DNA of 31,995 nucleotides from the IMG/VR virus record IMGVR_UViG_3300044640_001290, positions 1-31,995 of that record; one strand, given 5' to 3'. This DNA is from a virus. The position numbers were made by a program, and so were the translations under genes. The stretch's first letter is position 1; the number at the start of each line of letters is the position of its first letter. Of this stretch, positions 24,492 through 30,857 are shown piece by piece. The notes beneath the pieces are model-generated. The model ran no database searches, was not told where the DNA came from, and saw only the letters and a program-made list of their open reading frames with translations.

Positions 24492-24764
24492 ATGACTTTA
24501 TCTGAAATCAAAACTCAACTTGGTTACGAATCTTTATCTTTGAACACTGTAGCTACTGCTACTGGTGAGAAAACATCATGGATGAAACACTGGGACAACA
24601 CTAATCGTGTAGCAGTACTCATCCATAAAGATACGTTAGCCAAGCTGAAGGCCAACATGGCTTGCTCATCATTGGGCATCAAGACTGCCACTAAACAAGG
24701 CAGCAAAGGCGAATACAATGCACATACCATTGTGATGTATAATCCTGCTGAGGAGACACTATAG
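24492..24764 (+). CDS. 90-aa paralogue 1 (KHWDN family)
   Basis: 90 aa. Contains WMKHWDNTNRVAVLIHKDTL (30-49), LGIKTATKQGSKGEYN and the end AEETL. Two paralogues follow at 25140-25415 and 25936-26211. No transmembrane segment, signal or known catalytic motif; the strand-rich pattern RVAVLIH, GEYNAHTIVMYN suggests a small alpha+beta domain. Coding bases are richer in C and G than in paralogue 3, though the protein is similar. It has its own 29-bp element 16 bp upstream and a hairpin that includes its TAG stop. Likely an early accessory or host-interaction protein; the function is not known. Confidence 0.7.
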   Translation: MTLSEIKTQLGYESLSLNTVATATGEKTSWMKHWDNTNRVAVLIHKDTLAKLKANMACSSLGIKTATKQGSKGEYNAHTIVMYNPAEETL

Positions 24765-25139: not shown

Positions 25140-25415
25140 ATGGCAACAATTGCAGAAGTTAAAGCAGGATTAGGAATCTCTACACTTAGTTTGAACACAG
25201 TTAAAACAGCTGCTGGAGAGAGCACAAGTTGGTTAAAGCACTGGGATAACTCAGAGCGAGTAGCTGTGTTGATACACAGAGATACTCTAGATGCCATTAA
25301 GGCAAATAGAGGAGTTGCTTCATTGGGGATAAATACCCAAGTTAAACAGGGAGCAAAGGGAGAATACGTGGCGAAGACCATTGTGCTCTACAAAGAAGCA
25401 GAAGAGACCTTATAG
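25140..25415 (+). CDS. 91-aa paralogue 2 (KHWDN family)
   Basis: 91 aa, reading MATIAEVKAGLGISTLSLNT, then GESTSWLKHWDNSERVAVLI, HRDTLDAIKANRG and GINTQVKQGAKGEYVAKTIV. It differs from paralogues 1 and 3 mainly at surface-like positions, and its codons are different at many conserved residues, so the copies seem old and under purifying selection. Ends EETL with TAG inside a hairpin. Expression from copy 3 of the 29-bp element. The function is not known; possible host-takeover or defence-related protein. Confidence 0.7.
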   Translation: MATIAEVKAGLGISTLSLNTVKTAAGESTSWLKHWDNSERVAVLIHRDTLDAIKANRGVASLGINTQVKQGAKGEYVAKTIVLYKEAEETL

Positions 25416-25935: not shown

Positions 25936-26211
25936 ATGGCTACATTAGCAGAGATTAAAAATGTTTTAGGTTACGATGCTCTTAATTTAAATACAGTTAC
26001 CACAGTTAGTGGAGAAAAGACTGATTGGATGAAGCATTGGGATAATAATAGCAGAGTTGCTGTTCTTATTCATAAGGATACATTAGCTAAAGTTAAAGCT
26101 AATGGTGCAATTGCCACATTGGGAATAAATACCCAAATAAAGCAAGGTGCTAAAGGTGAATATGTTGCTAAAACTATAGTAGCATACACAGAAGCAGAGG
26201 AAACTTTATAG
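25936..26211 (+). CDS. 91-aa paralogue 3 (KHWDN family)
   Basis: 91 aa, MATLAEIKNVLGYDALNLNT, GEKTDWMKHWDNNSRVAVLI, HKDTLAKVKANGA, GINTQIKQGAKGEYVAKTIV and end AEETL. Its DNA uses mostly T/A third positions (GTT, GCT, AAA), unlike paralogue 1 (more C). The protein is closest to paralogue 2. It has element copy 5 upstream and a hairpin across its TAG. Three tandem copies with separate promoters suggest dosage or diversified targets. Function unknown. Confidence 0.7.
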   Translation: MATLAEIKNVLGYDALNLNTVTTVSGEKTDWMKHWDNNSRVAVLIHKDTLAKVKANGAIATLGINTQIKQGAKGEYVAKTIVAYTEAEETL

Positions 26212-29243: not shown

Positions 29244-29504
29244 ATGAACAAGCTTATTAAGACCTTTAGAACTAAAATATCTGCATTGTTGTCTCCAGAA
29301 CCTGAAGTACAACAAGAATATGTAGATAAAGTAGTATATCTTTTACGAAGAGATTTTACTACTAAAGAACAGAATGAGATAATAGTTGCGATTGAACTTA
29401 AACTGACCAAATTAAGAGAAAAAGACATGCAACAAATGGAAAATAATTATCTTATTCTTCAAAGAGATTACAATATCTTAAAAGATAGAGTAGTTATAAG
29501 TTAA
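29244..29504 (+). CDS. 86-aa helical protein, unknown
   Basis: 86 aa, MNKLIKTFRTKISALLSPEP..., followed by long helices (EVQQEYVDKVVYLLRRDFTT, VAIELKLTKLREKDMQQMEN), likely coiled coil. It is followed by a terminator-like hairpin at 29537-29574 and by the tmRNA gene. Coiled-coil small proteins are common in phage early regions; no specific assignment can be made. Confidence 0.5.
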   Translation: MNKLIKTFRTKISALLSPEPEVQQEYVDKVVYLLRRDFTTKEQNEIIVAIELKLTKLREKDMQQMENNYLILQRDYNILKDRVVIS

Positions 29505-29536: not shown

Positions 29537-29574
29537 ATAAAGAGGGTAAATCTTCTATGGAAGTACCTCTTTAT
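29537..29574 (+). terminator. Hairpin ahead of the tmRNA gene
   Basis: ATAAAGA (29537-29543) and GGTA (29545-29548) pair with TACC and TCTTTAT (29564-29574), and CTTC (29552-29555) can pair with GAAG within the loop. T-rich TTCTTATTT follows. It separates the 29244 gene from the tmRNA by 13 bp. Confidence 0.6.
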
Positions 29575-29587
29575 TTCTTATTTAAAA

Positions 29588-29959
29588 GGGGGTGATTTGG
29601 CTTTGACAGGTTATCAGTAATTAATACAATCAGCCAGAGAGATAACTGTAAACTAAGGTGAACCAATTAAATGGAAACACAAAAGAGAATACCCAAGTAC
29701 AAGCTAATATGAGTAAAGTTTACTCACTTATTTCTTCTGTAGAAGAAGTGGCTGTGGCAGCTTAAGCCAAAGATTAAGCAGGTTAATACTCAGTTTGCCA
29801 GGATAGAAAACTGGATGGTGGAATCTACTGGTTACAGTTGACCCTTTTCCCAAGTTTAGTAGATTATTAGGAAGTAAATAATATTAAAATCTGCAAAAAG
29901 CTGTATAAATTGTATTAATGAATGTAATTTGGACACGGGTTCGAATCCCGTCACCTCCA
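29588..29959 (+). ncRNA. ssrA: Phage-encoded tmRNA (10Sa RNA)
   Basis: The 5' end GGGGGTG (29588-29594) pairs with CACCTCC (29952-29958) to form the 7-bp acceptor stem with a G·T at pair 3, with discriminator A at 29959. The T-arm is ACGGG-TTCGAAT-CCCGT (29935-29951). The D-like part reads GATTTGGCTTTGACAGG. Helix 2 is seen as ATTAATACAA (29620-29629) with TTGTATTAAT (29910-29919). A resume frame from GCT 29703 gives the tag ANMSKVYSLISSVEEVAVAA followed by TAA (29763-29765), and AATCTACT/AGTAGATT can pair downstream of the tag. CCA is not encoded. Total length 372 nt fits tmRNA. It would free stalled ribosomes and tag proteins. Confidence 0.93.
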
Positions 29960-30224
29960 CTATAAACAAGAACTTAATCAGGTTGGTAATCCTATTGTAT
30001 TCGAAATTATGATTTTATCATAATAGTAATCTAGTAAGCCCAGAAGTATTCTGTTCAGGTTTAGGCTAAGATAAAGAAACATGTCATCGCCCTCGGCTAA
30101 CCACATGCAACCACCTTCTTAGCTTTTCTATAACAAAAAGGCAAACACTAAAAATCAAAACAAATCTCTATGTATGGAACAGGTTATTGCCTTCCTATGA
30201 AGTATGTAGAACAAAAACAAAAGT
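29960..30224 (+). other. Gene-free spacer after the tmRNA
   Basis: 265 bp with no convincing gene. It holds a perfect hairpin ATTATGAT-TTT-ATCATAAT (30006-30024) that may end or protect the tmRNA precursor, then a moderately GC-rich stretch (CATCGCCCTCGGCTAACC at about 30085-30102) that differs from its surroundings, and an A-rich leader (AACAAAAACAAAAGT) before the ATG at 30225. No clear promoter box seen. Confidence 0.4.
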
Positions 30225-30857
30225 ATGAATACACAAAGTTCAAACACAGACCAAAGAGTAAGAAAAGAAGTTTCTAAATCAGCTTTAGCTATTTCTAGAG
30301 TGTATGCTGCTAATTACCAAAAAGAAGGTACTTTGACAGCAGAAATTAAACAGACTGTGACTACAAAGTCATATTATCCATCAAAGTCTGTAAGTAACAA
30401 CATGCAGGATAATCCATTCAGTACATCTGATTTTGGTTTTTCTGAAAATGAGTATACTTCTCAAGAAACTAGAGTTGTATGGGTTGATGTACCTATGGGT
30501 TCTACAGTAGAAAGCGTTGGAGCTAAATTAAGCTCTTTAGCTAATGCTACAATCTACAAAGTGTTAGCTAATAAGCCAATCTTGTCTGATAATCAACTTT
30601 ATGCTATTAGTGCAGGGTTGACTACAAAAGATGCTATTGCTGACAAACAAGTAGTTAGATATCCTTCAGGTCATCCTCAAGAGAACCAACTGATTCTTGA
30701 CCCTAATGGTAAAGTTCAGTACAAAGCAACATTCTTTAAATCTTCTATGAAAGAAGATGAAGATTTGCGAACAGAAGTTGTATCTGATTTCTATTCTACA
30801 CCTGCTATGAATAGCGAGTTAGCGGGAATTATTTCTGTACAACAAGAGACTTTATAG
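30225..30857 (+). CDS. 210-aa unknown protein with 'QETL' end
   Basis: 210 aa. Residues 1-80 are low-complexity polar (MNTQSSNTDQRVRKEVSKSA, many Ser/Thr/Asn). Then comes a folded part TRVVWVDVPMGSTVESVGAK, LSSLANATIYKVLANKPIL, with charged C-terminal segment. It ends QQETL and TAG; the last four residues recall the EETL of the three 90-aa paralogues, and the TAG again sits at a short hairpin (AGACT-TTAT-AGTCT). It lies just before the helicase, with a strong terminator in between. A role in replication (such as ssDNA or host-factor binding) is only a guess from position. Confidence 0.5.
   Translation: MNTQSSNTDQRVRKEVSKSALAISRVYAANYQKEGTLTAEIKQTVTTKSYYPSKSVSNNMQDNPFSTSDFGFSENEYTSQETRVVWVDVPMGSTVESVGAKLSSLANATIYKVLANKPILSDNQLYAISAGLTTKDAIADKQVVRYPSGHPQENQLILDPNGKVQYKATFFKSSMKEDEDLRTEVVSDFYSTPAMNSELAGIISVQQETL

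Follow-up and report, generated by a model that had tools for sequence, protein, structure and literature searches.

Why phages carry tmRNA genes is an open question, and the locus considered here raises it in a specific form: does a virus-borne RNA with an unusually long tag frame act as a tmRNA, and what does the additional part of its tag do? The DNA analyzed (the window: 31,995 nucleotides, positions 1–31,995 of IMG/VR record IMGVR_UViG_3300044640_001290) is a 32-kb virus fragment, in which a first-pass annotation had placed a phage-encoded tmRNA at positions 29588–29959.

Identification of the tmRNA gene

Analysis with ARAGORN revealed a single tmRNA in the window (29588–29960; tag GNTKENTQVQANMSKVYSLISSVEEVAVAA), and a covariance-model search gave a full-length match to Rfam family RF00023 at 29588–29962 (101.4 bits, well past the cut-off of 47; E 9.5e-39), the sole Rfam match above cut-off across the entire window. 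Two of the checks that had been proposed for the predicted gene, a covariance model and a tmRNA finder, agree with it. The features of the locus are:

29588..29962, + strand: one-piece tmRNA gene (ssrA); ARAGORN, RF00023 at 101.4 bits
29588..29594, + strand: acceptor stem, 5′ strand GGGGGTG, G3 at 29590; from the sequence
29635..29662, + strand: PK1 region CAGAGAGATAACTGTAAACTAAGGTGAA, signature of the phage tmRNA family; pattern search and arm covariation
29673..29765, + strand: tag frame, 30 codons plus TAA, GNTKENTQVQANMSKVYSLISSVEEVAVAA; ARAGORN, host resume context, relatives
29694..29732, + strand: conserved inner module QVQANMSKVYSLI; 82/83 distinct tag DNAs, protein-level constraint
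29751..29762, + strand: C-terminal AVAA, putative ClpX-type degron; 75/80 family tags end in AA
29935..29951, + strand: T-arm ACGGG-TTCGAAT-CCCGT; sequence, Rfam alignment
29952..29958, + strand: acceptor stem, 3′ strand CACCTCC, U70 at 29956; from the sequence
30225..30857, + strand: downstream neighbor of family phrog_16309, function not assigned; tmRNA just upstream in relatives

The acceptor stem and T-arm, which had been noticed earlier, are well formed: the stem (GGGGGUG/CACCUCC) is paired at all positions and includes G3·U70, the alanine-charging feature that had been asked for, and the T-arm is canonical. The predicted fold of the RNA is more stable than those of shuffled sequences (z −2.2). 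The covariance score, the tRNA-like domain with G3·U70 and T-arm, and the tag frame with resume codon and stop leave practically no doubt that the RNA at 29588–29962 is a tmRNA. The DNA following the discriminator (A29959) reads CTA; CCA is not encoded and would therefore need post-transcriptional addition, and, judging from the sequence, the mature tmRNA would end at A29959. An inverted repeat (AAAGAGG..CCTCTTT; 29539–29572, + strand), either terminator-like or a processing hairpin, lies just 5′ of the gene.

Tag reading frame and comparison with host tmRNAs

The tag had been described as 20 residues long, opening with Ala from a GCT codon. This start is ruled out by the ARAGORN call, which places the resume codon at GGA (29673), and by the resume context (TTAAA[CT] followed by GGN) that is common to the window tmRNA and the host Bacteroidota tmRNAs (e.g. 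TTTAAAC before GGC in a host). The tags of the phage relatives likewise align starting at the resume codon GGA. Since the resume codon is GGA and not GCT, the tag comprises 30 residues; the claim of unusual length holds, the figure of 20 does not. An ATG inside the tag and the AVAA end, both pointed out in the first-pass annotation, are present in the tag called by ARAGORN. A degenerate DNA pattern for the inner motif had a single match in the window, which lies within the tmRNA, and none in 100 shuffled sequences.

The comparison with host ssrA genes that had been asked for covered 25 Bacteroidota genomes, in which 24 tmRNAs scored above cut-off. The host tags are 9 residues long in 22 of the 24 (e.g. 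GENNYALAA, GNEEYALAA and GEYSYAMAA; the other two ARAGORN calls were implausible), as against 30 in the window and three to five times the host length in the phage family, and the inner motif was absent from the host tags examined. The emphasis originally placed on AVAA as opposed to ALAA carries less weight, because in the phage family Ala-Ala is as a rule preceded by a hydrophobic residue, an ending that resembles ordinary ClpX degrons. The real surprise is the conserved inner module in the long tag of a large phage-only family.

The phage and its locus

The terminase, portal and major head protein encoded in the window match PHROGs 6681, 6547 and 11589, respectively (E below 1e-200), all three being of crAss type. 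The closest isolates are the Fpv1-type phages of Flavobacterium psychrophilum (terminase 68–69% identical), followed by gut Crassvirales (approximately 31–36% identity). On these protein comparisons the window can be assigned to a Crassvirales-like phage, kin to the F. psychrophilum phages. It is a virus of aquatic Bacteroidota bacteria.

The tmRNA gene is flanked by a small ORF (29244–29504) and the phrog_16309 gene (30225–30857). Among relatives with enough upstream sequence, a tmRNA was found at the equivalent place in six of seven. Three small paralogous proteins of the window (24492–24764, 25140–25415 and 25936–26211, + strand) end in ETL, as does the unrelated phrog_16309 protein (+ strand; EETL or QETL among the four), and Pfam gave no match for the one ETL paralogue tested. 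This C-terminus was considered as a possible counterpart signal and was rejected, the ending not being repeated in the relatives sampled.

A family of tmRNAs in phages

Relatives of the window tmRNA were sought by blastn, ARAGORN and Rfam searches. The Fpv1-type phages carry a tmRNA of this family (tag GNTNNSVVSLEDNAQVEANMNMAFSLIREDVAVAA), as does Cellulophaga phage phi14:2 (Crassvirales, Steigviridae; tag GNDTDNTQLKANMTVVHNILNGSDALIGSSVQKLAMVA); in the GenBank records of Flavobacterium phages Fpv1, FpV4 and FPSV-S29, and in that of phi14:2, the tmRNA is left unannotated. The phi14:2 gene scores 46 on RF00023, just below the cut-off of 47, and is detected by ARAGORN; small hypothetical proteins are annotated over it in the phi14:2 record. 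The calleviruses (Pervagoviridae), a group unrelated to the Crassvirales-like phage of the window, also carry a family tmRNA (tag GNNTNAVNAQIEANMEAVNAILNLEVAVGV), annotated in Calle_1 and not in phi38:1 or phi40:1. In long-tag relatives ARAGORN frequently truncated the tag or failed to call the gene, so long-tag tmRNAs are probably under-annotated.

An exact pattern of the PK1 region was found in at least 119 IMG/VR viral contigs and in none of 84,980 bacterial and archaeal species genomes, and the arms of the PK1 helix covary across the family. Judged by this signature, the family is large and confined to phages. The window tmRNA has both marks of a long-tag phage tmRNA, the PK1 signature and the inner module within a long tag. 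Gene lengths in the family range from 301 to 474 nt. Among the matches listed, 112 family genes had a complete acceptor stem, representing 13 distinct stems. G1-C, G2-C, G3·U70 and G7-C are invariant in all 13, and pairs 4–6 covary; the search demanded a 5′ GGG, so that the G half of pairs 1–3 was partly imposed, the U70 partner not.

Other tmRNAs were observed in further phages. Oafivirinae, Crassvirales of the gut and airways (Bohxovirus, Burzaovirus), contain a circularly permuted tmRNA of two-piece type (RF04321, 63–71 bits; L007:2469-2658, L345:1319-1554 and L346:1319-1554) with short tags (e.g. GNFNVVDYTCVA, GNVNNIVDYTNVA), which is annotated in two records and not in Bohxovirus PV686213. 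Two human fecal phage fragments (L008:2194-2535 and L009:2192-2535) carry standard tmRNAs (133–143 bits), and the ARAGORN tag of the latter is short (ANDNKLAYAA).

A conserved module inside the tag

Among the matches listed, 83 distinct tag DNAs, chosen by the RNA signature, encode 80 distinct peptides of 24–49 residues, 27 of them 35 residues long. The peptides end in AA (75/80), VA (4) or GV (1); in 73 of the 80, V, L, I or M stands third from the end. A core with the consensus Q[VI]xANMxxV[FHY][SN][LI][LI] is present in 82 of the 83 tag DNAs, Q, A, N and M being found in 82/82 and V in 81/82 of these; such motif counts are given without a significance test, since related sequences are not independent. 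The spacers flanking the core vary in both length and sequence and look modular, and the module begins anywhere from tag residue 3 to 15, at a variable distance before the tag end. A single tag lineage (L053/L121; GNIDNDAQEVVDINYTFSTPMMVVHKGERKSVSPSQDLSWGTRQVAIAA, 49 aa) lacks the ANM module, and its tag still ends in IAA.

Within the core, codon positions 1 and 2 are frozen and third positions vary: Asn is encoded by AAC (50) or AAT (32), and Val by GTA (45), GTT (31) or GTG (5). The core had a pN/pS ratio of 0.39 (an overstatement, because synonymous sites are near saturation), as compared with 0 in ANM and 0.99 in the three codons that follow the core. This contrast between codon positions shows that the core is under selection at the protein level, since Q, A, N and M stay fixed despite the variation at third positions.

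Because the first set had been picked by an RNA signature, the same viral collection was scanned independently with a degenerate DNA pattern that represents the peptide core alone. At least 119 matches were obtained, and all 26 new loci listed are tags of this family: the 5′ half of a tmRNA lies upstream in 24, a contig edge cuts off two, and none is a protein gene. The PK1 helix of the new loci shows compensatory changes (CAG/CTG versus TAG/CTA, CCG/CGG, GAG/CTC and GGG/CCC).

The core DNA pattern was found in none of 397 Flavobacteriaceae genomes. A profile of the tags gave no convincing match in 16 Bacteroidota genomes (best E 0.02, a 57-codon frame) and no match in the PDB. The idea that host or phage proteins also bear the motif was therefore dropped, none having been found in the genomes, the core-scan loci or the PDB. 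AlphaFold2 predicted one helix (mean pLDDT 89 over residues 11–20), a weak test for an isolated short peptide.

Candidate partners of the module

Searches of 34 phage records for SmpB, and of 31 for Lon and SspB, found none of the three; ClpP was not detected above cut-off in 31 records, one of which gave a weak partial match below threshold. These absences are weakened by the fact that some of the phage records are fragments. A partner encoded by the phages themselves was rejected: at blastp level, the 12 tmRNA-bearing phages sampled have no protein family common to all of them, and none of the families present in eight or more includes Callevirus. With no shared phage protein family or partner found, the module is more probably recognized by a protein of the host. 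All 10 hosts searched for Lon encode it; a search of three hosts for SspB found none.

Proposed role of the tag

The phage tmRNA would be alanylated by host AlaRS via G3·U70, its CCA being added by the host, and would bind host SmpB and enter stalled ribosomes during infection. There it would append Ala plus a 30-residue tag (24–49 residues in the family) of bipartite design: (i) a variable N-terminal spacer, (ii) a predicted amphipathic-helix module, QxxANMxxVxxLL, and (iii) a C-terminal degron of a hydrophobic residue and Ala-Ala. A hydrophobic-Ala-Ala C-terminus fits the ClpX-type degrons of ssrA tags. The module is most likely, by analogy, a further recognition site, read by host Lon or by some host protease adaptor, and such a site would cause the tagged proteins to be handled differently from those bearing the 9-residue host tag. 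Because its position within the tag varies, the module looks more like a self-contained docking site than like an arrest peptide, which would act at a fixed distance from the peptidyl transferase center. The analogy with Lon is one of length and hydrophobicity only, because Mycoplasma tags, which end in NYAFA, reach Lon without the motif. Our confidence in this chain as a whole, from a functional tmRNA to a module read by host Lon or an adaptor, is middling; it suggests that these phages rewrite the fate of proteins from stalled ribosomes.

Of the roles put forward in the first-pass annotation, replacement or redirection of host tagging is plausible. A decoy consisting of the tRNA-like domain only is unsupported, given that the RNA has a complete mRNA-like part and that its tag is constrained at the protein level.

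The phage gene might instead reinforce ordinary rescue, supplying extra capacity when host tmRNA is limiting, with ClpXP acting through Ala-Ala and the inner part of the tag being incidental. The tag ends (AA in 75/80, mostly preceded by a hydrophobic residue) would fit such a role, and other phages have annotated tmRNAs with short ALAA-type tags. However, the module is nearly invariant as protein across two unrelated phage groups while the flanking tag residues are free, which argues that the inner stretch is not incidental, and we regard simple reinforcement as unlikely.

To a similar degree it is doubtful that the module is a virus-specific address label or sponge, binding a host protein so as to inhibit or recruit it, with proteolysis secondary; trans-translation would then be an anti-host or anti-defense tool of unrelated Flavobacteriia phages. 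In keeping with this, the polar (Q, N) and hydrophobic positions are strictly kept while the distance to both ends varies, and the module is absent from the host proteins and host tags searched and common to unrelated phages infecting Flavobacteriia. The Ala-Ala end is kept too, which argues that turnover matters.

It is very improbable that the conserved stretch is an internal translation start (the ATG of AAY-ATG opening a micropeptide) or an RNA-structure element. In its favor, the Met codon never varies and GCT is used most often directly before AAY-ATG. Against it, the conserved amino acids include Q and A, which precede the ATG, and CAA/CAG, GCN, AAC/AAT and GTN vary synonymously, third positions being the freest; this pattern fits a translated peptide, and neither an initiation context nor a base-paired element.

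The family makes the question of why phages carry tmRNAs directly testable, because changes in a single peptide can be assayed and cultured isolates (phi14:2, phi38:1, Calle_1) carry the gene. A tag rebuilt around a conserved module under clear protein-level selection may reveal a new protease adaptor or target in Bacteroidota, and may yield new degradation tags.

Comparison with known systems

Phage tmRNAs had been characterized in the first-pass annotation as rare and known for some mycobacterial phages. In a 2014 survey, mycobacteriophages and Bacillus phage G were indeed the only phages listed with ssrA (PMC4131195), but by 2021 tmRNA had been reported in 402 of 18,146 phage genomes (PMC9004378), and huge phages carry tmRNA and SmpB (PMC7162821). 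Mycobacteriophages such as Bxz1, Bacillus phage G, streptomycete phages and Melnitz likewise encode an ssrA that needs ribosome-rescue machinery (PMC4131195, PMC9004378). The annotated streptomycete phage tags are short (e.g. ANSKFAFALAA), whereas those of the window family have 24–49 residues and an inner module. In the available portions of a 2025 database paper, the commonest tag length is 10 aa, extremely short tags are reported and a long-tag phage group is not mentioned (PMC11915505). We found no prior description of the long-tag family in the open-access literature; the tmRNA Website, which includes RefSeq viruses, may hold some of the sequences.

Among the systems nearest to the window tmRNA are the callevirus tmRNAs (Calle_1, phi38:1, phi40:1), phage Calle being credited with one tmRNA, whose tag is not described in the accessible text (PMC8776804). 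They belong to the same family and have a 30-aa tag that contains the module and ends in VAVGV, whereas the window tag ends in AVAA. Host Bacteroidota ssrA is alike in its one-piece form, GGN resume codon and context, G3·U70 and mostly unencoded CCA; it differs in its 9-aa tag, longer PK1 and lack of an inner module, and the phage PK1 signature is not found in the genomes.

The nearest working analogues are the extended ssrA tags of Mycoplasma and Mesoplasma, which are recognized by Lon (works cited in PMC11986505, PMC9382460). They too are long, with internal hydrophobic residues and a proposed change of protease preference; no resemblance in sequence was noted, and the tags end in NYAFA in hosts without ClpXP. 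The window tag ends in AVAA instead, which excludes membership of the Mycoplasma type and not a similar way of working. Set beside these systems, the novelty lies in a family of long-tag tmRNAs that is confined to phages and shares a conserved inner module.
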